NCBI RefSeq assembly: GCF_964222135.1
Contig: NZ_CAXQBR010000024.1
Location: 1 to 45,368, forward strand
Source: Euzebya sp.
GTDB lineage: Bacteria > Actinomycetota > Nitriliruptoria > Euzebyales > Euzebyaceae
Length of the DNA stretch: 45,368 nucleotides
Direction: 5' to 3'
Shown here piece by piece: positions 1 to 45,368 of the stretch (position 1 is its first letter; each line of letters opens with the position of its first letter). The notes beneath the pieces were generated by a model. That model saw only the letters and a list, made by a program, of their open reading frames with translations, was not told the origin of the DNA and made no database searches. Position numbers and translations under genes: made by a program.

Positions 1-3523
<3,523 letters not shown>

Positions 3524-3525
3524 GT

Positions 3526-3544
3526 GATGCTCGCGCTCGCTATG
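3526..3544 (+). other. 23S precursor processing stem, right arm
   Basis: GATGCTCGCGCTCGCTATG at 3526-3544 pairs over its full 19 nt with 579-597, closing the helix around 23S. It lies in the 23S-5S spacer, which carries no tRNA. The short hairpin GAACTC-CATA-GAGTTC just before 5S reuses the AGAACTCCATAG word found before the left arm. Confidence 0.85.
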
Positions 3545-3580
3545 TCGTTCATCAGAGAACGCAAACAAGAACTCCATAGA

Positions 3581-3698
3581 GTTCCGTGGTCATTGCGGAG
3601 GGGGTACACCCGGTCACATTCCGAACCCGGAAGTTAAGCCCTCCAGCGCCGATGGTACTGCGCGGGAGACTGCGTGGGAGAGTAGGACGTCGCGGACC
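3581..3698 (+). rRNA. rrf: 5S ribosomal RNA
   Basis: About 118 nt with canonical 5S features: CCGAACCCGGAAGTTAAGC in the loop B/C region (3620-3638), GATGGTACTG, and a terminal GAGAGTAGGACGTCGCGGACC. The first and last bases form the helix I stem. It completes the order 16S-23S-5S. Ends are approximate. Confidence 0.95.
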
Positions 3699-31165: not shown

Positions 31166-32572
31166 CGCATGGCGCGCACGGTGGGCGGCGATCACGTCGG
31201 CGTACCAGCGTGCGCTGTCCTTCGGGGTCCGCTCGAGCGTGTCGAAGTCCACGCGGATCAGCCCGAAGCGCTTGTCGAAGCCCAGCGCCCACTCGAAGTT
31301 GTCGAGCAGCGACCACACGTGGTACCCGCGGACGTCGATCCCGTCAGCCACCGCCTCGGCGATGACCTCGAGGTGCCGGCGCAGGTAGTCGATGCGACGC
31401 GGGTCGTGGACCACGCCGTCAGCCGCCACCTCGTCGGCGAACGCGGCCCCGTTCTCGCTGACCACGAGCGGGAGGTCCGGGTACGCCTGCCCGACCCGGC
31501 GCAGCACGCGGGCCAGCCCCTCCGGCTCGACCCCCCAACCCATCTCGGTCAGCTCGGCGGGCGGGGTGACCTCCACCGCCCCGTCCGCGCCCGGGTAGGC
31601 GCCGGGTGCCGGAGCCCCCTCGACGTGGCGGACGTGGGTGATGTTGTAGTAGTTCACCGCCAGGTGGTCGATCGGCTGGTGCACCCGCGCGAGCTCGTCG
31701 ACGTCGACCCGGTCGGCGACGCCGTAGCGGTCGTGCAGCGCGAGGACTGCGTCGGGGTACCGACCCTCGAGCACGCCGTCGAGCCACATCTGGCTGTGGA
31801 TCAGGTCCACGGCCTCGGCGACGGCGTCGTCTGCTCCGTCGGGGTCCTGGCCCTGGGCGGGGATCAGGTTCAACGCGATCGTCACGGTGTCCTCGGGCCG
31901 GGCGACGGTCTCCCGGAGCACCGCGACCGCGCGGTGGTGGGCCAGCAGCATGTGGTGGGCGGCGAGGAACGCCGTGCCGGGATCGGCGATCCCCGGGGCG
32001 TGGTGCCCGGACCCGTGGCCGAGGAACGCCGCGCAGTACGGCTCGTTGATCGTCAGCCAGTCCGAGGCGAGGTCGCCGAGCGCGCGCTTGGCCGTGCCCG
32101 CGTAGTGGGCGAACCACTCGACGGATTCAGGGGACGCCCAGCCGCCGCGGTCCTGCAGCACCTGGGGCAGGTCCCAGTGGAACAGTGCCACCAGCGGGCG
32201 GATGCCCGCGTCGGCCAGCAGCTCGCAGAGGCGTCGGTAGAACTCGACCCCGTCCGGGTTGACCTCGCCGTCCCCGGACGGGATCAGCCGCGGCCAGGCG
32301 AGGGAGAACCGGTAGGTGTCCACCCCCAGGTCGGCCATCAGCGCCACGTCCTCGGCGACCCGGTGGTAGTGGTCGCAGGCGACCGCGGCGGTCTGGCCCC
32401 CGGCCACCTTGCCGGGGGTCGCGCTGAACGTGTCCCAGATCGACGGGGCACGGCCGCCCTCGTCGACGGCCCCCTCGATCTGGTGGGCGGACGCCGCCAC
32501 CCCCCAGGAGAACCCGGCGGGCAGGTCGATCTCGATGGGGGAGGGGGAGGGGGCGGGGGCGGTGTCGGTCAC
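31160..32572 (-). CDS. glycoside hydrolase family 1 beta-glucosidase
   Basis: 470 aa, standard GH1 length. The N-terminal signature reads FSWGVAASAHQIEGAVDEGG; acid/base Glu177 is in LTINEP; nucleophile Glu373 is in VVSENG; HVWSLLDNFEWALGFDKRFGL closes the aglycone side. There is no signal peptide, so it is cytoplasmic. It should hydrolyse beta-glucosides imported by the adjacent ABC system. GTG 32572 overlaps the stop of the upstream permease by 4 bp. It is the last gene of the lacI-SBP-permease-permease-GH1 operon. Cellobiose or related beta-glucosides are the likely substrates. Confidence 0.95.
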   Translation of the reverse strand: MTDTAPAPSPSPIEIDLPAGFSWGVAASAHQIEGAVDEGGRAPSIWDTFSATPGKVAGGQTAAVACDHYHRVAEDVALMADLGVDTYRFSLAWPRLIPSGDGEVNPDGVEFYRRLCELLADAGIRPLVALFHWDLPQVLQDRGGWASPESVEWFAHYAGTAKRALGDLASDWLTINEPYCAAFLGHGSGHHAPGIADPGTAFLAAHHMLLAHHRAVAVLRETVARPEDTVTIALNLIPAQGQDPDGADDAVAEAVDLIHSQMWLDGVLEGRYPDAVLALHDRYGVADRVDVDELARVHQPIDHLAVNYYNITHVRHVEGAPAPGAYPGADGAVEVTPPAELTEMGWGVEPEGLARVLRRVGQAYPDLPLVVSENGAAFADEVAADGVVHDPRRIDYLRRHLEVIAEAVADGIDVRGYHVWSLLDNFEWALGFDKRFGLIRVDFDTLERTPKDSARWYADVIAAHRARHAG

Positions 32573-33678
32573 TTGTTCACTCCGGAGAGGTCGATGCCCT
32601 TCAGGAAGACCCGTTGGGCGAAGAAGAAGATGATGATCGGGATGCCCATGGCCAGCAGCGCGCCGGCCTGGATCAGGTGGGGGGAGGTGTCGAACAGGCT
32701 GTTGAAGATCTGCAGGCCGACGGCGATCGGCTGCAGGTCACGGCGGGTGGACAGGTACACGAGCGGCTCGAAGAAGTCGTTCCACGCGTAGAAGAAGTGG
32801 AAGATCGCCACGGCCACCAGGGCCGGGCGGGCCTGGGGGAGGATGACCGACCAGAGGGTCCGGAGCGGTCCGGCGCCGTCGATGGCGGCGGCCTCGTCGA
32901 GGTCCTTCGGGAGGGTCAGGAAGTACTGGCGGAGCAGGAACACGTTGTAGGCGTTGCCGAAGAAGTGCGGGACGATCAGCGGCAGCCAGGTGCCGACCCA
33001 GCCGATCCGGTGGAACAGCGCGTAGGTCGGTACCAGGGTCACGAACTTCGGCAGGATGATCGTGGCGATCAGCACCACGAAGATCGTCCGCTTGAACGGC
33101 AGCTCGAAGCGGCTGAGGCCGTAGGCGACCAGCGTCGACGCGACAAGCGTGCCGAGCATGCCGATCACGGCGATCGCGACGGTGTTGCGGAGCAGCACGA
33201 GGAAGTCCATCTGCTCCCAGGCCGCGGCGTAGTTGGAGGTCTGCGGCGCCCAGTCGTAGTCGGGGACGAGCTGGCGCCAGTTCCCCTCCCACTCGACGGG
33301 GCCGGCGGCAGGATCGGCGGGGTCGATGAACTCGCTGACCTGGCGGCCGGGCCGGACCAGGGCGAGCTCGCGGAGCTCCTCGCCGCCGTCCGCGGTGGGC
33401 ACCGGGACCTGGAACACCTCGTGCTCCTCCCCCTCCCAGGCGAAGGTGCCCGGCGCCGCCGGGTACAGCGGCGCGCGGAAGTCCTGGATCATCGCCTCGC
33501 TCTTGAGCGACGTCGCCCCCATGTACGCCAGCGGGGCCAGGTACACCACCAGCACGCCGGTGGCGACCATCGTGACCATCCCGCCGGCGAGCAGGCGCTT
33601 CATGCCCGCGTCGGCATCCCGCAGGCGGCGTCGCGGTTCGCGGAAGAGGCGGCGTCCCCTCATCGCTGCCGCGCTCAT
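32569..33678 (-). CDS. carbohydrate ABC transporter permease (MalG type)
   Basis: 369 aa with about six transmembrane helices. The EAA loop that contacts the ATPase reads YFLTLPKDLDEAAAIDGAGPLRTLWSVILPQARPAL, as in MalG-type permeases. Residues ~55-140 form an unusually long extracytoplasmic insert between the first two helices (LYPAAPGTF, then GGEELRELALVRPG and YDWAPQTSNYAAAW). ATG 33678 overlaps the partner permease stop as ATGA. It forms a heterodimeric pore with the next gene. The MsmK-type ATPase is not in this locus and is presumably shared from elsewhere. Confidence 0.93.
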   Translation of the reverse strand: MSAAAMRGRRLFREPRRRLRDADAGMKRLLAGGMVTMVATGVLVVYLAPLAYMGATSLKSEAMIQDFRAPLYPAAPGTFAWEGEEHEVFQVPVPTADGGEELRELALVRPGRQVSEFIDPADPAAGPVEWEGNWRQLVPDYDWAPQTSNYAAAWEQMDFLVLLRNTVAIAVIGMLGTLVASTLVAYGLSRFELPFKRTIFVVLIATIILPKFVTLVPTYALFHRIGWVGTWLPLIVPHFFGNAYNVFLLRQYFLTLPKDLDEAAAIDGAGPLRTLWSVILPQARPALVAVAIFHFFYAWNDFFEPLVYLSTRRDLQPIAVGLQIFNSLFDTSPHLIQAGALLAMGIPIIIFFFAQRVFLKGIDLSGVNK

Positions 33679-34667
33679 GAGCGCTCCCCGAACTCGTAGT
33701 GCACCCAGTAGCGGGCCGACCAGAACAGCAGGCCGGTCACGACCACGCCGGCCAGGAACAGCATCCACGCGAGCGTGGCGGCGTACCCCATGTCCTGGAG
33801 CCGGAAGAGCGTCCGGAAGAAGTACATCGAGTAGAAGAACGTGGCGCCGCCCGGGTCGCCCGACCCGTTCTTCAGCACGAACGGCACCAGGAAGTACTGG
33901 AAGAGCCCGATCAGCGCGACGACCACGTTGTAGAAGAGGACCGGCGAGATCATCGGCAGGGTCACGTGGCGGAACGCCTGCCACGACGAGGCGCCGTCGA
34001 CGTCCGCGGCGTCGTACAGGTCGGTCGGGACCGAGTTGATCCCGGCGATGAAGATGATCATCGCGTTGCCGACCCCCCACAGGGCGATGAGGGTCAGCGT
34101 CGGGTAGATCCACACCTCGGAGTTGAGCCAGTTCGGCCCGGGCACGCCGATGGCGCCCAGCGCGCGGTTCGCCCACCCCGTCTGGGAGTTCAGGACCCCG
34201 TTGAACACCAGCACGGCGGCGACGAAGGGGATGACGCTCGGCAGGTAGAAGAGCGTGCGGAAGATCGACCGGCCCCACAGCTGCTTCGCCGTGAGCAGGT
34301 ACGCGAAGCCGAGGGGGACCGCGATCGTGAGGGGGAGGGACAGGACGCCGAACTTGACGGTGACGAGCGCCGAGTCGATCACCTCGGGGTCGCCGAGGAG
34401 CCGCTCCCAGTTGCGCAGGCCGACGAACTCCGCCGGCTCGGGGGACGTCAGGCTGAAGTCGGTGAAGGAGAACCACAGGCTGGCCAGCATCGGGATCGCG
34501 TACCAGAGCGCGAACCCGAGGATCCACGGCGCGACGAACGCGAGGCCGATCCGCCCCTCGCGTCGTCGCAGCCGCGAGGCACGACCTCCTGGTGGTGCCG
34601 GCTTGGGCGGTGGGGCGGACAGCCCGGGGCGGCCCGCCCCGCCGCGGACCGGTGCCGCGGTCGACAC
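33675..34667 (-). CDS. carbohydrate ABC transporter permease (MalF type)
   Basis: 330 aa. A basic Pro-rich N-terminus (residues ~1-35) precedes six transmembrane helices, the first around IGLAFVAPWILGFALWYAIP. The EAA loop is PTDLYDAADVDGASSWQAFRHVTLPMISPVL. Partner of the MalG-type gene downstream. GTG 34667 is 2 nt after the stop of the binding protein, so the two are translationally coupled. Confidence 0.93.
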   Translation of the reverse strand: MSTAAPVRGGAGRPGLSAPPPKPAPPGGRASRLRRREGRIGLAFVAPWILGFALWYAIPMLASLWFSFTDFSLTSPEPAEFVGLRNWERLLGDPEVIDSALVTVKFGVLSLPLTIAVPLGFAYLLTAKQLWGRSIFRTLFYLPSVIPFVAAVLVFNGVLNSQTGWANRALGAIGVPGPNWLNSEVWIYPTLTLIALWGVGNAMIIFIAGINSVPTDLYDAADVDGASSWQAFRHVTLPMISPVLFYNVVVALIGLFQYFLVPFVLKNGSGDPGGATFFYSMYFFRTLFRLQDMGYAATLAWMLFLAGVVVTGLLFWSARYWVHYEFGERS

Positions 34668-34669
34668 GC

Positions 34670-36211
34670 CTACTCTGCGCTCGCGGCGAAGATGTCGGTC
34701 AGCTCCGCCTCGAGGTCGGCGACGGCGGCCGCCATGTCGAGGTCGGGGTCGCTCAGCTGGGCGCTCTCGAGGTCGGCCAGTGCCAGCTTGTACTCGTCCC
34801 AGCCGGGGACGGCCTGCTCGGCGCTCGGGACGTCGGCGTACGCGGCGGAGTCCATCGCGACCTCCCAGGTGACGCCTTGGGGGAACACCTCGTCGAGGTC
34901 GGCGAAGAACGCCTCCGTCAGCGACGGGTCGGCCGGCGCGGCGCCGTAGGCGTTGAGCAGCTCGAGGGCGGCGTCGTCCAGCAGGTGGCTGAGGACCTCG
35001 AAGGCCTCCTCGGGGTGCTCGGTGGACTCGAGGATCCGGAAGGTGTCCGCGTGCATGTTGGCCGTCACCACCCCGTCGTGGGAGGGCATGACCGCGATGT
35101 CGAAGAAGTCGTAGCCGTTGCCGTCGTCGTCGCGGATGCAGCACGTGTACCAGAGGTGGGAGTTCGCCATCGCCACGTTGCCGGACGCGAACGGGTTGCC
35201 GGCGAGCAGGTCGGAGTCGAACTGCTCCTGGCTGGGCGCGAACCCGGACTCCCACACCGCGTCGTGGTACCAGGCCCACTCCTCCTCCCAGGCGGCCGGG
35301 ATGTCGGCGGTGCCGTCGTCGGCGACGGGCGAGCCGGCGCCGAAGTGGGTGCCCTGGGCGAACATCAGCGTCGTCCACTGGTTGATGTAGCCCCACTGCA
35401 CGGTCTGGGAGCGGTCGAAGTCGGGGCTGGTCGCGTCGGTGCCGTTCGCGTCGACGGTCAGGATCTCGGCGATCTCGGCGACCTTCGCGTAGTCCCAGGG
35501 ACCCTCGTACTCGGTCCCCTCGCCGTAGGTGGCGGTGCCGTCGTCGCCGTAGCTCTGCGGCGGGTACGGGAGGCCGGCCTCGTCGAACAGCTCGGTGTTG
35601 AAGTAGATGAAGGAGGGGAACGAGGCGAACGGCAGCCCGGGGAGGGTCCCGTCGTCCTCGCGGAAGTTCTCGACCGTCTCCTCCGGCCAGCGGGAGGTGT
35701 CGTAGCCCGTCTGCTCGATCAGCGGTTCGAGGTCGAGGTACAGCCCGGCGTAGGAGTTCGCGCCGTCCCGGCCGACGGGTCCGACGATGTCCGGCGGGTT
35801 CCCGCCGGCGATCTGGGTGGAGAGGGTGTCGTAGGCGACGTCGTTCTCCACCACCTCGAGGACGATCTGGATGTCGTCGTGGGAGGAGTTGAACGCGTCG
35901 ACCACCGCCTCCTGGGCCGCGATCTGCTCGGGCTGGCCGCCGGCGCCGAGCCCGACGAACCAGCGGATCTCGACCGCGTCGCCGCTGCCCGCGTCGGCGC
36001 TGTCGTCGGCGGTGTCGGCTGCGGTGTCGGTCTCGTCGGCGTCGGCCTCGCCGGTGTCGTCGGTGGTGTCGGCCGCGGCTTCGGTGGGGTCGTCGCCGCC
36101 GGCGCCGGCATCCTCCTCGACGGGGTCGCTGCCGCCGCAGGCGGCCAGGCCGAGGGCCAGCACCAGTGCCAGCAGCACGGTGGTGCGGGCGCGCGTGAAT
36201 ACCATGGTCAT
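34670..36211 (-). CDS. extracellular sugar-binding lipoprotein (SBP family 1)
   Basis: 513 aa. A lipoprotein signal with lipobox LAAC, Cys25, is followed by a Asp/Ala/Thr-rich acidic linker (about 30-75) and a type I solute-binding fold: AAQEAVVDAFNSSHDDIQIVLE, STQIAGGNPPDIV, YFNTELFDEAGLPYPP, WGYINQWTTLMFAQG. Aromatic residues in the binding region suit sugar stacking. Tethered to the outer membrane face, it would hand a beta-glucoside to the permease pair. ATG 36211 has GAGGAG 5-6 nt upstream; ATG 36205 is an alternative. Confidence 0.94.
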   Translation of the reverse strand: MTMVFTRARTTVLLALVLALGLAACGGSDPVEEDAGAGGDDPTEAAADTTDDTGEADADETDTAADTADDSADAGSGDAVEIRWFVGLGAGGQPEQIAAQEAVVDAFNSSHDDIQIVLEVVENDVAYDTLSTQIAGGNPPDIVGPVGRDGANSYAGLYLDLEPLIEQTGYDTSRWPEETVENFREDDGTLPGLPFASFPSFIYFNTELFDEAGLPYPPQSYGDDGTATYGEGTEYEGPWDYAKVAEIAEILTVDANGTDATSPDFDRSQTVQWGYINQWTTLMFAQGTHFGAGSPVADDGTADIPAAWEEEWAWYHDAVWESGFAPSQEQFDSDLLAGNPFASGNVAMANSHLWYTCCIRDDDGNGYDFFDIAVMPSHDGVVTANMHADTFRILESTEHPEEAFEVLSHLLDDAALELLNAYGAAPADPSLTEAFFADLDEVFPQGVTWEVAMDSAAYADVPSAEQAVPGWDEYKLALADLESAQLSDPDLDMAAAVADLEAELTDIFAASAE

Positions 36212-36249
36212 GCCATCTCCTCTTGCTTCCAGGCGGTGGGGTTGGCGGT

Positions 36250-36339
36250 GGGGCTGTCGGACTGGACCTCTGGCAGCCCCACGTGTGCGTTGTGGGTCGG
36301 TGACCTCCGCAGGTCACCTCGGGGGCGACGTGGCCCCCG
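36250..36339 (-). other. three consecutive inverted repeats between lacI and the binding-protein gene
   Basis: Reading from lacI: CGGGGGC/GCCCCCG (36320-36326 with 36333-36339), GGTGACCT/AGGTCACC (36299-36306 with 36311-36318, 8 bp, 4-nt loop) and GGGGCTG/CAGCCCC (36250-36256 with 36274-36280). They fill most of the 133-bp gap. None has a T-tract. They may partly terminate lacI transcripts or protect the downstream mRNA; the spacer also has a direct repeat GGCGGTGGGG near the binding-protein start. Confidence 0.6.
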
Positions 36340-36344
36340 CGTCA

Positions 36345-37355
36345 TCACGCGCCGTGCGTCCCTCCTGTCGTCGACTGGCGGATGATGAGCTCGGTGGGCA
36401 GCAGGATGCGCCGGGGCCCGCCGTCGGGGTCCTCGAGCAGGTCCAGGAGGACCCGCGCCGCCTCCGCGCCCTGGGCGGCGACGCTCTGGCGGATCGTGGT
36501 GAGGGGCGGGGTCAGCCCGGCGGCGAAGTCGAGGTCGTCGAAGCCGGCCAGCGCGACGTCGTCGGGGACCGCGACGCCGGCCTCGACCAGCGCCGCGAGC
36601 GCCCCGCTGGCCGTCGCGTCGTTGGCGCAGAAGATCGCGTCCACCCCGGCCTCGAGCAGGGGCGGCACCCCGGCCCGGCCAGCGGCGGGGTTGAAGTCGC
36701 CGCGGACGACGAGGGCATCCGTGGGCAGGCCCGCGGCGGCCATGGCCTGGGTGTACCCGGTCAGGCGGTCCTCTCCCGCCACGCTGCCGGCCAGTCCGCT
36801 GATGTGCCCGATCCGGCGGCGGCCGAGGTCGATCAGGTGCCGGGTCACCATCGCGGCGGCGGCGACGTTGTCCACGTCGACGTAGCTGGCGGTCCGGTCC
36901 TCGCGGCGGTGGCCGATCAGGACGGTGGGGATGCGCGAGGCGAGGAGGCCGTCGACCAGGGCGTCGTCCTGCCAGTGGGCGGTGACGATCACGCCGTCGA
37001 CGAGGCCGATCCGCTCGATGTCCTGCAGCGTCTCCTGCTTGGACCGGTTGCCCAGCCACAGCATCATCCCGGTGGCCCGCTCGGCGAGGGCGTCGCTCAT
37101 GCCCTGCAGGAGGCCGCTGAAGTAGGGATCGCCGAAGAGGAGCGCGGGCTCGAGGTGCATCACGACGCCGACGACGCCGGACCGGCCCGAGGCGAGCGTC
37201 CGCGCCGCCCGGTTGGGGGAGTAGCCGGTCTCGGCCAGCACGGCCAGGACCTTCTGGCGGGTCGCCTCGGCGACGGGTCCGCCGTTCAGGACCCGCGAGA
37301 TCGTCGCGCGCGACACCCCGCTCAGGGACGCCAGATCGTCCAGCGTCAGGCTCAT
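36345..37355 (-). CDS. LacI family transcriptional repressor
   Basis: 336 aa. The N-terminal helix-turn-helix and hinge read LTLDDLASLSGVSRATISRVLNG, then TGYSPNRAARTLASGRSGVVG. The periplasmic-binding-like core contains FCANDATASGAL and LAGFDDLDFAAGLTPPLTTIRQ. ATG 37355 has GGGAGGAG about 8 nt upstream. It is the first gene of the sugar operon and has an operator at its own start point, so it probably represses itself and the operon until sugar binds. By operator sequence it should be CelR/CebR-like. Confidence 0.93.
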   Translation of the reverse strand: MSLTLDDLASLSGVSRATISRVLNGGPVAEATRQKVLAVLAETGYSPNRAARTLASGRSGVVGVVMHLEPALLFGDPYFSGLLQGMSDALAERATGMMLWLGNRSKQETLQDIERIGLVDGVIVTAHWQDDALVDGLLASRIPTVLIGHRREDRTASYVDVDNVAAAAMVTRHLIDLGRRRIGHISGLAGSVAGEDRLTGYTQAMAAAGLPTDALVVRGDFNPAAGRAGVPPLLEAGVDAIFCANDATASGALAALVEAGVAVPDDVALAGFDDLDFAAGLTPPLTTIRQSVAAQGAEAARVLLDLLEDPDGGPRRILLPTELIIRQSTTGGTHGA

Positions 37356-37414: not shown

Positions 37415-37446
37415 GGGCCTGTTTCGCGCACGCTCGTCGGCAGATG

Positions 37447-37460
37447 TGGGAGCGCTTCCA
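37447..37460. promoter_or_regulatory. CelR/CebR-like operator
   Basis: TGGGAGCGCTTCCA differs at one position from the actinobacterial CelR/CebR box TGGGAGCGCTCCCA. Its centre is 75 bp from the centre of the operator at 37371, about seven helical turns, and it is 70 bp upstream of the GlsB-type ATG. It could serve as auxiliary operator for looping or control the neighbouring gene. Confidence 0.72.
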
Positions 37461-37529
37461 CGTGACCGGGGTGGGTGTGCCGTCAGATGGTGGTGTGTCC
37501 GGGCCGGGCCGTCAGGGGAGGGTCAGGTC

Positions 37530-37793
37530 ATGGCAATCATCGGGTTCATCATCGCCGGACTGGTCATCGGCGCCCTCGCGCGCCTCTTCAAGCCCGGACG
37601 TCAGAAGATCGGCTTGCTGGGCACGCTGCTGCTCGGCGTCGTCGGGTCCGTGATCGGCGGCGTCATCGCCAGCCTGCTCGGCACGGGCGACATCATGGAG
37701 CTCAACATCCTCGGGTTCGTCGTCGCCGTGATCGCCGCGGTGGTCCTGCTCGGCATCGCCGAGGGCACGGCCGGTCGCAACCGCAGCGCGTAG
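37530..37793 (+). CDS. GlsB/YeaQ/YmgE family small membrane protein
   Basis: 87 aa from ATG 37530, with GGGGAGGG about 9 nt upstream. Three hydrophobic segments (IIGFIIAGLVIGALARLFKPG, LLGTLLLGVVGSVIGGVIAS, ILGFVVAVIAAVVLLGIAE) and Gly spacing are as in the transglycosylase-associated/GlsB stress family. The role is unclear; in other bacteria members are stress-induced. Divergent from the lacI operon. Confidence 0.9.
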   Translation: MAIIGFIIAGLVIGALARLFKPGRQKIGLLGTLLLGVVGSVIGGVIASLLGTGDIMELNILGFVVAVIAAVVLLGIAEGTAGRNRSA

Positions 37794-38287: not shown

Positions 38288-41200
38288 ATGTCCTCGTCCT
38301 CGTCACGCGCGCTGCTCATGCGTGCGCTGCTCATCGCGCTGGTGGCCTCCGTGCTGCTCGCGGTGCCACCCCTGCCGGCCGCTGATGCCCAGGAGGGGGC
38401 CGGCACGACGGTCCTGGTCTTCTCGAAGACGGCCGCGTTCCGGCACGACTCGATCCCCGCAGCTGTCGACGCCCTCGAGCAGCTGGGTGAGGACAACGGC
38501 TGGACGGTCGACGCTACCGAAGACGCCAGCGCCTTCACCGACGAGAACCTGGCGGGCTACGACGTGGTGGTCTTCCTGAGCACGACGGGGGATGTGCTCG
38601 ATGCCGCCCAGCAGGCCGCCTTCGAGCGCTACATCCAGGGTGGCGGCGGGTACGCGGGCATCCACGCCGCATCCGACACCGAGTACGAGTGGGCGTGGTA
38701 CGGCGATCTGGTCGGTGCCTACTTCGAGAACCACCCGCCGGGGACGCCCGCGGCGACCGTGGAGGTCGCGGACCACGTCCACCCCTCGACCGCGCACCTG
38801 CCGGCCCGCTGGCAGCGAGTAGACGAGTGGTACTACTTCCAGGACAACCCCCGCGGCGACGTCCACGTGCTGGCGAGCATGGACACGACGAGCTACAGCG
38901 GCAGCGGCATGGGTCCGGACCACCCGATCGCGTGGTGCCACGACTTCGATGGCGGGCGCAGCTGGTACACCGGCGGCGGTCACACCGCCGCGAGCTTCAC
39001 CAACGCGGACTTCCTCGAGCACATCGAGGGCGGGATCCTCACCGCCGCCGGCGCGCAGATCGCCGACTGCGGCGCCACCGTGGAGGACGAGTTCGAGCGC
39101 ACCGTCGTCGACGACGAGACCTCCAACCCGATGAAGCTCGACATCGCCGACGACGGGACCGTGCTGTACATCGAGCGCGACGGCCGGGTCCGGGTGTGGG
39201 ACCCCGAGGTCCAGATCCCGCAGACCGCCGGTCAGCTCGAGGTCTCCCAGACCCACGAGGACGGGCTGCTCGGCATCGTCGCCGACCCCCAGTTCAGCGA
39301 GAACGGTTGGATCTACCTGTACTACTCCGACCCCGCGACGGTGGGATGCCCGGAGAGCGACCCCGCGGCGACCACGTGCGGCGAGAACGTGCTGTCGCGC
39401 TTCCACCTCGACGTCAGCGGTCCGACCCTGGACCTGGGCAGCGAGGTGGAGTTGCTCCGCGTCACGACCCAGCGCAACAACTGCTGTCACGCCGGCGGGG
39501 CGCTGACCTTCGACGACGCCGGCAACCTCTACCTGGCCACTGGCGACAACACCGACCCGTTCGAGAGCAACGGCTACACCCCCATCGATGAGCGCGACGG
39601 CCGGTCGTCCTTCGACGCCCAGCGCACCTCGGGCAACACCAACGACCTGCGCGGCAAGGTGCTGCGCATCACGCCCCAGGACACCGGTCCACCAGAGATC
39701 CCCGCGGGCAACCTGTTCGAGGACGACGACCCGCTCACCCGCCCCGAGATCTGGGCCATGGGCTTCCGCAACCCGTTCTCGATCAACTGGGACTCCACCC
39801 ACGACCGACTGATGGTCGGCGAGTACGGGCCGGACGCGAACAGCGCCAACCCCAACCGTGGCCCGGAGGGTCGGGTCGAGTGGCTCGCGGTCAGCGGCCC
39901 CAGCAACCAGGGGTGGCCGTACTGCGTGAGCGGGAACGTCGCCTTCACGGACTACGACTTCGCGACCAGCACCTCGGGTGACCAGTTCGACTGCAGCGCA
40001 CCCGTCAACGACTCGCCCAACAACACCGGCCTGGAGAACCTTCCGCCAGCGCAGCCGGCCACGCTGTGGTGGGGCTACAACGCCAACAACAACAACGTGC
40101 CCGTCATCGGTCGGGGCGGTGCGCCCATGGCCGGCGGGGTCTACGAGTACACGCCCAACGCCGGCCCCGACGCCTTCCCCGAGTACTACGACGGCGTCGC
40201 GTTCCTCATGGAGTGGAACAACAACGACATCTACGAGGTGCACTCCGACGGCACCGGGGCCGTCACGCACGTGGCGCCCTGGCTCGACGACCAGACCTTC
40301 CGCCGCCCCCACGACATGCGCTTCGGCCCAGATGGGGCGATGTACCTGATCGAGTGGGGCTCCGGCTTCGGGGGCAACAACGCCGACTCGGGCGTGTACC
40401 GCATCGGCTACACGGGCGGCGCGTTCCGCCCGGTTGCCAGGATCAGCGCGACCCCCGACAACGGCCCGGCACCGCTCGAGGTGCAGTTCTCCTCCGAGGG
40501 GACCGAGGCGATCGCACCCGAGGCCGAGATCGACACCCTGGAGTGGGACTTCGACGGTGACGGCACCATCGACTCGACCGACCCGAACCCCACGCACACC
40601 TACGACGAGGCCGGCCAGTACACCGCCAGCCTGACCGTCACCGACACCCTGGGAGCCGTGGGCATCGCGAGCACGACGATCACGGCGGGCAACACCCGCC
40701 CGGTCGTCACCGTCACCGCCCCCGCGGCCGGTGGGTTCGTCCACTTCGGTGACGAGTTCGAGTGGTCGGTGACCGTCACCGACGCCGAGGACGGCAGCAC
40801 CGCCGACACGATCGACTGCGACGACGTGCAGGTCCGCCTGCTGCTGGGACACGACGAGCACGCCCACGCGCTGCAGAACACGACCGGCTGCGACGGCACC
40901 TTCACGACCAGCGGTGACGGTGGCCACGGCGTCACCGAGAACCTCTTCTTCGTGGTCGAGGCCACCTACCTGGATCAGGCGCAGGGCGACGCGCCGTCCC
41001 TGTCGGACAACGACATCGTCCAGCTCCAGCCCAAGACCCGGCAGGCGGAGCACTTCGACGACGCCGACGGGTTCGTCATCACCTCCGACGAGATGGCCGA
41101 GGGACTGGCCGTCGTGGTCGGCTCTGCCGGTGACGCCTTCAGCTACGACCCGGTGAACCTGGCGGGCGTCGACAGCCTCGCCGTGCGCTACCGCTCGACC

Positions 41201-44200
41201 GGCGACGCGGTGCTCGAGCTGCGCAAGGGTGCCGTCGACGGCCCCCCGGCCGCGACGGTGCAGCTGACCGACAGCGGCGGCGAGTTCGCGACCAGCGCGC
41301 CCGCCACCGTGACCGACCCCGTCGGCACGGACGCCTACCACCTGGTGCTGGCGTCCGGCACCGACGTGAGCATCGACAACCTGCGGTTCGAGGGCCGGGG
41401 CAGCGCGACCAACGCCGCGCCCGTGGTGACGGCCGAGGCCACCCCGACCAGTGGGATCGCGCCGCTCACGGTCGAGTTCGACGGATCCGCGGTCGATCCC
41501 GACCCCGAGGACACGGTCGCGGGCTACGAGTGGGACTTCGGTGACGGCACGACCGCGGAGGGGACCGAGGCGTCGCACACCTACGTCACCCCGGGGGAGT
41601 ACACGGCCCGGCTGTCCGCCACCGACTCCCGTGGTGCCACCGGCTACGACGAGGTCCCGATCACCGTCGAGGTCGACCCCTCACCCCCCGTCTGCCTGGC
41701 TCCCGGGTCCGACGAGTTCGAGGGCACGGAGCTGGACACCGGCACCTGGAGCATCGTCCGGGACAACCCTGGGCTGTACCGGGTCGAGGGGGGCCAACTG
41801 ATCCTCACGACGAGCCAGGGCGACCTGTACCAGAACACCAACAACGCCCAGAACGTGATCTTGCAGCCCGCCCCGGGCGACGTCTTCGAGATCACCACGC
41901 AGGTGACCGTCAACCCGACGGCGACCTATCAGCAGGGTGGGATCATCGTCTACGGCGACGACGACAACTACACCAAGCTGGATGTCGTCTACAACGGCAA
42001 CCGCATCGTCGAGTTCCTCCGCGAGGTCGGTGGCACGCCGACCGCCGGCAACGGTCCGACGTTGGGGGCCGAGGTCTCGACCACCCTGCTGCTGCGGATC
42101 ACCAGCGACGGCACCGAGATGGTCGGCTCCTACTCCACCGACAGCGGTGAGACGTGGGTGACGGTGGGCAACCCGTCGCCGATCCCGGCCAACCCCCAGA
42201 TCGGCCCGTTCGCCCTGACGGGGAACAACACCGCCCCGCAGATCGATGCCGCCTTCGACTGGATCCGCGTCACGGGCCCGGCGACCGAGGCCCCCTCGGT
42301 CAGCGACGAGTTCGACGGCGACAGCCTCGACAGGTGCCGCTGGTCGGCGATCGTCCGCGAGGATCCCGAGGGCTACGAGGTCACCGACGGGCACCTGGTC
42401 CTCACCAGCCCCGACGGCGACATCTACCAGACCCCAAACGGTGAGCCGGGGAACTTCATCCTCCAGCCCATGCCGGACGGCGACTGGGAGATCGAGACCC
42501 ACGTCACCGCCGAGCTCGTCGGCCGCTACCAGCAGGCGGGCCTGTTGGCCTACGTCGACGACGACCAGTACGTGAAGCTCGACCTCGTCGCCGGCGGCCA
42601 AGCGACGTCCGGCCCGGCGCGGGTGGAGCTCCGCAGCGAGCTGGGTGCCGTCGTCCAGGACCCGCAGCCCCAGGCCAACACCACCAGCAGCGAGGTCACC
42701 CTGCGACTTCGCCGCGAGGGCGGCTCGTTCTACGGCAGCTACTCCTTCGACGGCGGCGAGACCTGGACGACGTTCGCCCAGGCCGTGACCAACACCGCGG
42801 TGATGGAGTCCCCTGATGCGGCCTTCGGCGTCTTCACGCTGGGCGCAGGCCAGGGCAACGACCCGCGGATCGACTCCTTCGACGCGGAGTTCGACTACTT
42901 CCGGCTGCTCGGTGAGGGCGGCGGGGACACCACCCCGCCCACGGTCGAGATCGAGCTCCGCGGTGACCTCGCAGGTGCGGTGACCCCGCTCCCGCAGGGC
43001 CCGCAGGGCATCGGCGGCACGGCGACCCTGTCCCGGACGGACGACGGCACCACCGCGAGCATCCAGGTCACCGGCCTGACGCCCGGCGCCACCTATCCCT
43101 CCCACCTCCACGCCGGCACCTGCACCACCGCGACCGGCCACTACATGGACGACCCATCCGGGGACCCGACACCGCCCAACGAGATCTGGTTGTCCTCGAA
43201 CCAGGACCCGATGGCCGGCCTGGCGGCGAACTCCAACGGCACCGCCAACGGCAACGGGTCGGCGACCTGGATCGCCCGCACCGAGCCGCTGTCCATCATG
43301 GTCCACGACCACCAAGCGCCGGGTGCCCCGATCGCCTGTGTCGACCTCGCGCCCGACGGCCCGCAGACGGTGGTCATCACCGCCGACGACGGCGACGGGT
43401 CGGGTGTGGACTCGATCGAGTCCCAGCTCGACGACGGGGACTGGGTCGCCTACGACCAGCCGTTCACCGTCTCCGAGCCCGGCGACCACACCGTCGGCGC
43501 CCGCGCGACCGACGTGGCGGGCAACACCGCCGAGCCGGTGGAGGCGACCTTCTCGATCGCCGAGGAGCCCGCGGTCGACGAGACCCCACCGGTCGTGACC
43601 GCCAGCCTGGACCCCGCGCCGGATGCGAACGGCGAGGTCGTCGACGGGCCGGTCACCGTGACCCTCTCCGCCAACGACCCCGGCACCGCCGAGGTCGAGG
43701 TCGGGGACAACTCCTTCACCCCGTCGGAGACGGCGATCACCGCCGGCGACGCGGTCCTGTGGACCTGGACCGGGTCCGAGACCCACAACGTCATCAGCGA
43801 CACGGGTCTGTTCAACAGCCCGAGCCAGACGGAGGGCACCTACACCCGGACGTTCGACGAGCCGGGCGAGTACGCCTACTTCTGCGGCCTGCACTCGCTG
43901 CCCGGCGGCCAGGCGCAGAACGGCGTGGTCACCGTCGCGGCCCCCGCGGGCAACGACGACGGCATCACCATCGAGTACCGGGTCGACGATCCGGACGGCG
44001 ACTGGGTCGCCTACGACCAGCCCTTCGACGTCGCAGGCGAGGGCGAGCACACCGTCGAGTTCCGCGGCACCGATGCCGCGGGCAACACCTCCGACATCGA
44101 ATCGGTGACGTTCACGATCACGACCGACGACACCAGCCCCGGCCCTGGTCCCAACCCCGGCCCTGGCCCCAACCCCGGTCCGGACCCGGACCCCGACCCC

Positions 44201-45368
44201 GACCCGGACCCCGAGGACCCCAGCCTCACACCGTCCGGCGGCGAGGTGGAGCTGACCGACTTCGGCACCGAGGGTGACCCCCTCGGGCTGGGCGAGCTGC
44301 TCGGGTCCTGGACCGTCGGCGGAGACGGGACGGTCACGTTCCCGACCGAGCTGGACGGCCGGATCTGCCTGATCGCCGTCGCCCCCGACGGCACGACGCT
44401 CACCGTGCGGTGCTTCGCCGAGGGCACGAGCTTCGCCCAGGACGGCGGTCGCGAGCTGACCATCCCCGTCACCGACGGCGCGACGCTCTACGCCTACCGG
44501 GTCGCGAACGGTGCGGTCCGCATCGCCGGCTCCGACCGGGTCAGCACCGCGGTGCAGACCTCGCGGTCCGGGTGGGACTCGAGCAGCGACGTGGTGCTCG
44601 CCACCGCCGACGGCTTCGCCGACGCCCTGTCGGCCGCGCCGCTGGCCGGCCAGCTCGACGCCCCGCTGCTCCTGACCCCGTCCGGCGCACTCGACGCCCG
44701 CGTGCTCGACGAGATCCGTCGACTCGGCGCCGACCGCGTCGTCGTCATGGGCGGCAGCGCGGCGGTGTCCGACGAGGTCGTCGCCGAGCTGACCGCGGCG
44801 GGCCTCACCGTCGAGCGGATCGGCGGTGGCGACCGGACCGAGACCGCGGCCCTGGTGGCGGACGCGATCGGTGGCGCACCTGACGGCACCGCCGTCATCG
44901 CCTCCGGCGGATCGTTCGCCGACGCCCTCGCGATCGCCCCGATCGCGGCGGCGCAAGGGCTGCCCATCTACCTGACGGGCGGCGATGGCCTGAGCGGCGC
45001 CACCACCGAGGCCCTGGCGGCCCACGGGGTGGACCGCGTGATCATCGTCGGCGGCACCGCTGCCGTGGACGAGGGCGTGGAGGAGGACCTGGCCGAGGCC
45101 GGTGTCGAGGTCGCCGAACGACTCGGCGGCGCGACGCGGTACGCCACCGCCGTCACGATCCTCGAGTGGGCCGCAGCGAACGGTGCGAACCTGACCGAGC
45201 TGCTGGTCGCGACGGGCACGGACTTCCCCGACGCCCTGACCGCCGGCGCCTACGGGGCGCGCACCGATCGGCTGGTCCTGCTGGTCGACGGACGTGCCCT
45301 GCTCGACGGCCAGCCCGGCGAGGGCTTCCTGGCCGGCACGGGTGACGACACCGAGCTGGTGGTCCTGC
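38288..45368 (+). CDS. giant modular surface protein: ThuA-like, PQQ sugar dehydrogenase, copper modules, CWB2 repeats (3'-truncated by window)
   Basis: Open for 2360 codons with no stop. In order: signal peptide (1 to ~34); ThuA-like domain (~39-250, GGGGYAGIHAASDTEYEW); glucose/sorbosone dehydrogenase beta-propeller (~270-710, HEDGLLGIVADPQF, NNCCHAGGALTFD); PKD 1 (~715-800); CBM6-like (~900-1035); PKD 2 (~1041-1128); two DUF1349/laminin-G-like repeats (~1138-1331, 1337-1543); SOD-like module (~1550-1690, His1606, His1608, His1618, His1673); an Ig-like repeat (~1694-1760); a second split by a cupredoxin (~1800-1886, His1833, Cys1866, His1869); a Pro/Gly/Asp linker; an unrecognised domain (~1985-2076); three CWB2 repeats from ~2078, the last cut off. 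Probably a wall-bound extracellular sugar-oxidising protein; the activity is inferred. Confidence 0.9.
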   Translation, partial: MSSSSSRALLMRALLIALVASVLLAVPPLPAADAQEGAGTTVLVFSKTAAFRHDSIPAAVDALEQLGEDNGWTVDATEDASAFTDENLAGYDVVVFLSTTGDVLDAAQQAAFERYIQGGGGYAGIHAASDTEYEWAWYGDLVGAYFENHPPGTPAATVEVADHVHPSTAHLPARWQRVDEWYYFQDNPRGDVHVLASMDTTSYSGSGMGPDHPIAWCHDFDGGRSWYTGGGHTAASFTNADFLEHIEGGILTAAGAQIADCGATVEDEFERTVVDDETSNPMKLDIADDGTVLYIERDGRVRVWDPEVQIPQTAGQLEVSQTHEDGLLGIVADPQFSENGWIYLYYSDPATVGCPESDPAATTCGENVLSRFHLDVSGPTLDLGSEVELLRVTTQRNNCCHAGGALTFDDAGNLYLATGDNTDPFESNGYTPIDERDGRSSFDAQRTSGNTNDLRGKVLRITPQDTGPPEIPAGNLFEDDDPLTRPEIWAMGFRNPFSINWDSTHDRLMVGEYGPDANSANPNRGPEGRVEWLAVSGPSNQGWPYCVSGNVAFTDYDFATSTSGDQFDCSAPVNDSPNNTGLENLPPAQPATLWWGYNANNNNVPVIGRGGAPMAGGVYEYTPNAGPDAFPEYYDGVAFLMEWNNNDIYEVHSDGTGAVTHVAPWLDDQTFRRPHDMRFGPDGAMYLIEWGSGFGGNNADSGVYRIGYTGGAFRPVARISATPDNGPAPLEVQFSSEGTEAIAPEAEIDTLEWDFDGDGTIDSTDPNPTHTYDEAGQYTASLTVTDTLGAVGIASTTITAGNTRPVVTVTAPAAGGFVHFGDEFEWSVTVTDAEDGSTADTIDCDDVQVRLLLGHDEHAHALQNTTGCDGTFTTSGDGGHGVTENLFFVVEATYLDQAQGDAPSLSDNDIVQLQPKTRQAEHFDDADGFVITSDEMAEGLAVVVGSAGDAFSYDPVNLAGVDSLAVRYRSTGDAVLELRKGAVDGPPAATVQLTDSGGEFATSAPATVTDPVGTDAYHLVLASGTDVSIDNLRFEGRGSATNAAPVVTAEATPTSGIAPLTVEFDGSAVDPDPEDTVAGYEWDFGDGTTAEGTEASHTYVTPGEYTARLSATDSRGATGYDEVPITVEVDPSPPVCLAPGSDEFEGTELDTGTWSIVRDNPGLYRVEGGQLILTTSQGDLYQNTNNAQNVILQPAPGDVFEITTQVTVNPTATYQQGGIIVYGDDDNYTKLDVVYNGNRIVEFLREVGGTPTAGNGPTLGAEVSTTLLLRITSDGTEMVGSYSTDSGETWVTVGNPSPIPANPQIGPFALTGNNTAPQIDAAFDWIRVTGPATEAPSVSDEFDGDSLDRCRWSAIVREDPEGYEVTDGHLVLTSPDGDIYQTPNGEPGNFILQPMPDGDWEIETHVTAELVGRYQQAGLLAYVDDDQYVKLDLVAGGQATSGPARVELRSELGAVVQDPQPQANTTSSEVTLRLRREGGSFYGSYSFDGGETWTTFAQAVTNTAVMESPDAAFGVFTLGAGQGNDPRIDSFDAEFDYFRLLGEGGGDTTPPTVEIELRGDLAGAVTPLPQGPQGIGGTATLSRTDDGTTASIQVTGLTPGATYPSHLHAGTCTTATGHYMDDPSGDPTPPNEIWLSSNQDPMAGLAANSNGTANGNGSATWIARTEPLSIMVHDHQAPGAPIACVDLAPDGPQTVVITADDGDGSGVDSIESQLDDGDWVAYDQPFTVSEPGDHTVGARATDVAGNTAEPVEATFSIAEEPAVDETPPVVTASLDPAPDANGEVVDGPVTVTLSANDPGTAEVEVGDNSFTPSETAITAGDAVLWTWTGSETHNVISDTGLFNSPSQTEGTYTRTFDEPGEYAYFCGLHSLPGGQAQNGVVTVAAPAGNDDGITIEYRVDDPDGDWVAYDQPFDVAGEGEHTVEFRGTDAAGNTSDIESVTFTITTDDTSPGPGPNPGPGPNPGPDPDPDPDPDPEDPSLTPSGGEVELTDFGTEGDPLGLGELLGSWTVGGDGTVTFPTELDGRICLIAVAPDGTTLTVRCFAEGTSFAQDGGRELTIPVTDGATLYAYRVANGAVRIAGSDRVSTAVQTSRSGWDSSSDVVLATADGFADALSAAPLAGQLDAPLLLTPSGALDARVLDEIRRLGADRVVVMGGSAAVSDEVVAELTAAGLTVERIGGGDRTETAALVADAIGGAPDGTAVIASGGSFADALAIAPIAAAQGLPIYLTGGDGLSGATTEALAAHGVDRVIIVGGTAAVDEGVEEDLAEAGVEVAERLGGATRYATAVTILEWAAANGANLTELLVATGTDFPDALTAGAYGARTDRLVLLVDGRALLDGQPGEGFLAGTGDDTELVVL

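Follow-up and report, generated by a model that had tools for sequence, protein, structure and literature searches.

Does a sugar dehydrogenase displayed on a bacterial surface carry its own copper electron carriers? The question arises from a long gene at the end of a contig from a Euzebya species, whose product joins a ThuA domain and a glucose/sorbosone dehydrogenase (GSDH) propeller to carbohydrate-binding-like modules, a superoxide dismutase (SOD)-like domain, a cupredoxin and CWB2 anchors. The first-pass annotation read this arrangement as a wall-bound, PQQ-type sugar oxidation chain with built-in copper carriers. That proposal is unsupported by our analysis, because the core of the protein is conserved whereas the copper modules are missing from nearly all of its family. 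The reading we prefer, to which we give about an even chance, is a wall-anchored carbohydrate-oxidizing ThuA-GSDH enzyme carrying lineage-specific accessory copper modules.

The gene and its domain architecture

The window, by which we mean the whole 45,368-nt stretch of DNA that was analyzed, is an entire contig. The gene is a single open frame of 2360 codons (38288-45367, plus strand) that begins with an ATG at position 38288 and is still open at the contig edge, which is also the edge of the window. Third codon positions have a GC content of 0.91-0.97 along its whole length, and the frame is therefore coding. Two congeners have proteins with the same domain order and about 64% identity to the window protein. 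The congener proteins L034 and L033 (2691 and 2897 amino acids) extend about 23 residues beyond the truncation point, and thus only about 23 C-terminal residues appear to be lost here. The domains are as follows.

38288-38392, plus strand: predicted signal peptide (residues 1-35), with a charged start, a hydrophobic stretch and an AADAQ-like cleavage site
38411-39040, plus strand: ThuA domain (residues 42-251; Pfam PF06283, 1e-79)
39071-40417, plus strand: GSDH six-bladed propeller (residues 262-710; Pfam PF07995, 7.6e-32, above cut-off)
40430-40684, plus strand: PKD domain 1 (residues 715-799; Pfam PKD_4/PKD, two stretches in the protein; exact bounds drawn from the sequence)
40685-41041, plus strand: unannotated Ig-like domain with the motif H855-x2-H858-x-H860...H880 (residues 800-918; alignment of relatives)
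41042-41392, plus strand: CBM6-like module (residues 919-1035; Pfam PF03422, 1.1e-8)
41411-41665, plus strand: PKD domain 2 (residues 1042-1126; Pfam PF18911, 4.9e-28)
41708-42277, plus strand: ConA-like module 1, GH43_C2/DUF1349 (residues 1141-1330; Pfam PF17851, 5.1e-24)
42305-42907, plus strand: ConA-like module 2, DUF1349 (residues ~1340-1540; Pfam PF07081, 7.3e-26)
42938-43363, plus strand: Cu-SOD-like domain (residues 1551-1692; phmmer to 1srd, 3.8e-5; AF2; Foldseek)
43361-43558, plus strand: OmpL47/Ig-like module (residues 1692-1757; NCBIfam NF047446, 2.4e-34 on the whole protein)
43670-43933, plus strand: cupredoxin (residues 1795-1882; Pfam Copper-bind, 4.1e-7 on the segment)
43940-44125, plus strand: Ig-like module (residues 1885-1946; Pfam Big_13/Big_3_4)
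44135-44242, plus strand: Pro/Gly-rich spacer (residues 1950-1985; visible in the sequence)
44519-45367, plus strand: three CWB2 cell-wall-binding repeats (residues 2078-2360, cut by the contig end; Pfam PF04122, 1.2e-44)

All of the domains called in the first-pass annotation (ThuA, GSDH, carbohydrate-binding-like, SOD-like, cupredoxin and CWB2) are borne out by Pfam, phmmer or AF2, and the ThuA match scores 268.1 bits against a curated cut-off of 33.4. However, that list had no entry for residues ~800-918, the His-rich Ig-like domain, which figures prominently below. Attachment to the cell wall is likewise supported, in that the window protein has three tandem PF04122 stretches, and known CWB2 anchors consist of three tandem repeats. 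The CWB2 part of the protein matches more than 100 places in this genome (158 matches in total), an unusually large wall-anchored set.

The contig starts inside an rRNA operon (1-3698), with the 3' end of the 16S gene, cut by the contig start, followed by a complete 23S gene and a 5S gene. Directly upstream of the long gene lies a frame for a small Transgly_assoc-family membrane protein (37446-37793). Also adjoining the long gene (32569-37355) are genes for a LacI regulator and for a sugar ABC transporter, represented by its solute-binding protein and two permeases. We set aside a functional link to this transporter, as the flanks of the congeners' genes gave no match.

The ThuA-GSDH core

An AF2 model of the ThuA and GSDH domains, built on a 57-sequence alignment, has a mean pLDDT of 93.8 and a pTM of 0.92. 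The ThuA portion matches the ThuA-like structure 4jqs (Z 24.7), and its residues His53, His126, Glu180, His212 and His232 are each kept in 96-98 of 98 relatives. The best structural match to the modeled propeller is the Pyrobaculum PQQ sugar dehydrogenase 3a9g (Z 41.5), followed by the Thermus enzyme (Z 40.4), E. coli Asd (Z 38.3) and Acinetobacter sGDH (Z 34.4). Alignment to sGDH (1c9u) equates His401 with sGDH His144 and Arg494-Asn495 with Arg228-Asn229. Both His401 and Arg494 are present in all 98 relatives, and Asn495 shows no variation among the 66 rows of alignment A2, where the pair is numbered Arg459-Asn460. A Gly-Pro of the calcium site is also retained. These features support a model in which the propeller has the fold of a PQQ sugar dehydrogenase and keeps its catalytic His and Arg-Asn residues. 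One congener (G002, L043 2179-4152) also encodes a ThuA-CWB2 protein that lacks the propeller.

Fusions of ThuA to GSDH are widespread and usually lack copper modules. At least 581 candidate stretches proved to be relatives, and the sampled members come from Actinomycetota, Bacteroidota, Planctomycetota, Verrucomicrobiota, Gemmatimonadota and Bacillota. The combination of GSDH with cupredoxin and SOD-like domains does recur in congeners, but the cupredoxin is present in just 3 of 114 sampled family proteins, which form one clade within this genus. The SOD-like domain occurs in about 11 of the 114, on scattered, separate branches of the family tree. Among the sampled family proteins, therefore, the two modules are found together on this enzyme in this genus only. 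Members from Micromonospora (L047) and Phytoactinopolyspora (L065) share the architecture of the window protein through the second ConA-like module and then continue with C-terminal Ig and FIMAH domains. In the lineage of the window protein, this Ig/FIMAH end gives way to the SOD-like domain, the cupredoxin and CWB2.

Does the propeller use PQQ?

The assignment as a PQQ-type sugar dehydrogenase stands as far as the fold, the catalytic His and the Arg-Asn pair are concerned, but the cofactor itself is less certain. In the alignment of 98 relatives, the PQQ clamp positions of sGDH, Lys377 and Arg408, are occupied by other residues, and the position of sGDH Arg406 is Arg in only 47 of the 98. PQQ binding may therefore be altered or absent. 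These replacements weaken the case for PQQ while leaving its use possible, since AA12 enzymes that lack Lys377 nonetheless bind PQQ (PMC6881789).

Genes for PQQ synthesis give a similar picture. PqqC was undetected in this genome and in the three congeners, and 101 relatives likewise gave no match over the cut-off. Among 38 searched genomes that carry the ThuA-GSDH family, 8 have PqqC over the cut-off and 30 do not, and the 8 positive carriers indicate that the search works. PqqE (TIGR02109) gave only a below-cut-off match in this genome, as it did in all 14 controls. PQQ use by the propeller is thus uncertain, and the scarcity of PqqC in the genus and in most carriers means that a scavenged or different cofactor has to be considered.

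These same observations favor a second explanation, in which the propeller no longer uses PQQ and instead serves for binding or for a different catalysis, so that the protein would be mainly a wall-anchored carbohydrate adhesin or a ThuA-type enzyme. The propeller model is structurally close to HHIP (Z 31.8), a relative that is not known to be an enzyme, and AA12 follows at a Z of about 30. We nevertheless regard this explanation as doubtful. Against it stand the retention of His401, Arg494, Asn495 and the calcium-site Gly-Pro and the AA12 enzymes, which bind PQQ without Lys377. Moreover, the sugar dehydrogenase Asd, whose structure is solved, comes from E. coli, which gave no PqqC match in our control set.

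A His-rich domain that tracks the propeller

The segment at residues 800-918 matches no family above cut-off in the window protein. A bacterial Ig family is matched by some relatives, and the PDB yields a single hit, to a bacterial Ig domain (E 8e-6). The histidines of the segment are nearly invariant, with His855 and His858 present in all 100 aligned relatives, His860 in 99 and His880 in 95. The pair Cys844-Cys868 is present in 93 of the 100. A profile of the domain was used to search 198 genomes of the phylum, and 30 loci were inspected. In 29 of these, a GSDH propeller lies upstream of the His-rich domain in the same frame. Where the propellers are divergent, the motif becomes HHC...CHxH. 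Conservation of the motif in this search is partly built in because the profile contains it, but the link to GSDH is not.

The His-rich domain therefore appears to track the propeller, and, being more widely conserved and close to it, is a better candidate for a metal site in cis than either the SOD-like or the cupredoxin module. It is possible, and we put this forward tentatively, that the domain holds a metal site, redox-active or catalytic, that serves GSDH propellers specifically, and that the SOD-like and cupredoxin modules were a later addition at the level of the genus. If so, the near invariance of the motif across phyla and its position after GSDH in 29 of 30 loci would make many secreted GSDH proteins two-site enzymes that combine a propeller with a metal center.

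The copper modules

The SOD-like domain falls below the cut-off for Pfam CHRD (E 0.04), but phmmer connects it to the Cu,Zn-SOD 1srd and Foldseek matches its AF2 model to Cu,Zn-SODs. The predicted copper ligands His1606, His1608, His1618 and His1673 and the disulfide cysteines Cys1612 and Cys1684 are kept in 13 of 13 domains of the set. There is no His between His1618 and His1673, which indicates that the Zn site is missing, and the electrostatic loop appears short because Cys1684 stands just 11 positions after His1673. Cu-only SODs similarly lack Zn ligands. No clear counterpart of the Cu,Zn-SOD active-site residue Arg143 is seen, and the aligned position holds Pro, Met or Ile.

The cupredoxin matches Pfam Copper-bind at 1.1e-4 in the context of the whole protein and above the curated cut-off when its segment is searched alone, and the segment also matches plastocyanin 1bxu (4.5e-6). 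His1833, Cys1866 and His1869 are intact in the window protein and both congeners (3/3). In all three, the alignment places Gln1877 at the position of the axial Met, making it the probable axial ligand, as in stellacyanin, which has an axial Gln. Other cupredoxins inspected in the phylum mostly keep Met at this position. An AF2 model of the SOD-Ig-cupredoxin part is confident for the SOD-like and Ig domains, whereas the cupredoxin has a pLDDT of about 50 or under, in an alignment without a second row, and so its assignment rests on sequence. For both modules, the loss of copper ligands in close homologues that would have counted against the initial domain assignments is not seen.

Both modules behave as exchangeable surface parts. 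This conclusion follows from the scattered branches on which the SOD-like domain occurs, from variable copy number, from a paralogue that lacks the cupredoxin, and from the presence of the same modules on other kinds of surface protein. In the congener proteins L033 and L034 the cupredoxin is followed by another SOD-like domain, and congener G003 encodes a paralogue (L040) with the SOD-like domain but no cupredoxin. In the genome of the window protein, a SOD-like domain is carried by a CWB2 protein (L127 2-3331) and a cupredoxin by a membrane protein (L128 231-2330), both of which look beta-helix-like by their sequences rather than by a profile match.

A third explanation assigns the SOD-like domain to superoxide defense in cis. 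The domain would remove superoxide made by the dehydrogenase or present in the environment, and the cupredoxin would serve as a copper store or electron partner. The complete set of copper histidines and disulfide cysteines, the Cu-only character of the site, and the joining of SOD-like modules to ThuA-GSDH proteins on several branches are consistent with this explanation. However, the Arg143 equivalent is not evident, the same domain occurs on a non-redox beta-helix protein, and PQQ sugar dehydrogenases do not reduce oxygen strongly. We therefore consider it unlikely.

The least probable explanation is the chain in cis, wherein the propeller oxidizes sugar and passes electrons to the cupredoxin, and to the copper of the SOD-like domain, for delivery to the cell or to oxygen: the copper ligands are conserved in congeners, all three congeneric full-length proteins retain the cupredoxin, and a PQQ dehydrogenase with a redox partner in cis is known (in Coprinopsis CcPDH, an AA8 cytochrome b; PMC6881789), but the SOD-like domain and the cupredoxin lie ~850 and ~1,100 residues from the propeller with several domains between, 111 of 114 sampled family proteins and the G003 paralogue lack a cupredoxin, and both modules also occur on beta-helix surface proteins.

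A model for the wall-anchored enzyme

In the carbohydrate-oxidizing enzyme that we favor, the CBM6 and ConA-like modules would probably hold a polysaccharide at the wall. The propeller would oxidize a sugar unit by using catalytic residues His401 and Arg494 and PQQ or a related quinone, probably scavenged. ThuA would then probably act on the oxidized product, an analogy drawn from rhizobia, in which ThuA pairs with a dehydrogenase and thuAB is described as supporting the use of sugars by way of 3-keto derivatives (PMC7404187, citing Ampomah 2013). Electrons would pass to a further acceptor, with no obligatory relay through the copper modules. The Cu-only-SOD-like domain and the Gln-axial cupredoxin would bind copper at the wall, and their distribution suggests an accessory role. 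With moderate confidence, we consider protection against oxidants or copper handling to be the most economical reading of these modules.

Although ThuA-GSDH fusions are found in several phyla, a search for ThuA with PQQ or GSDH found, in the library searched, no paper on such a fusion and no biochemical data. A search for cupredoxin with sorbosone dehydrogenase likewise found none on such a fusion among titles and abstracts. If the core is a quinoprotein, then many Gram-positive and other bacteria would oxidize polysaccharide-derived sugars at their surface by using a cofactor that most of them apparently do not make. The His-rich domain is a concrete candidate to fill the role of the missing electron or metal partner. 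The addition of redox domains to a surface enzyme, as seen in the copper modules specific to this genus, amounts to a natural experiment.

Comparison with known systems

The closest architectures are the ThuA-GSDH-PKD-CBM6 proteins of Micromonospora (L047), Phytoactinopolyspora (L065) and Paenibacillus (L114), which have ThuA, GSDH, PKD, the His-rich Ig-like domain and CBM6 in the order seen in the window protein. The two actinomycete proteins also share the second PKD domain and both ConA-like modules. However, the C termini of proteins of these types consist of FIMAH/Ig, PA14 or sorting tails, and SOD-like, cupredoxin and CWB2 domains are lacking.

Asd and sGDH have the six-bladed fold and the catalytic His and Arg-Asn residues in common with the window propeller. 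They are soluble, single-domain proteins, whereas the window propeller is fused to ThuA and other modules and has Lys377 and Arg408 replaced. CcPDH, with its AA8 cytochrome b-AA12-CBM1 arrangement, is also a PQQ-type propeller with modules in cis, and like the window protein it lacks Lys377 (PMC6881789). Its redox carrier is a haem domain, whereas the copper modules of the window protein are distant from the propeller, and a Pfam scan of the window protein found no cytochrome domain.

Copper-only SODs match the SOD-like domain in fold, in the four copper histidines, in the disulfide cysteines, in the lack of Zn ligands and in the short stretch after the last His. The window domain differs in being embedded in a large surface protein and in having no evident Arg143 equivalent, and its activity is putative. 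Finally, cupredoxins of the plastocyanin/amicyanin type share the type 1 His-Cys-His set with the window cupredoxin, which departs from plastocyanin and, like stellacyanin, has Gln in place of the axial Met in all three congeners.
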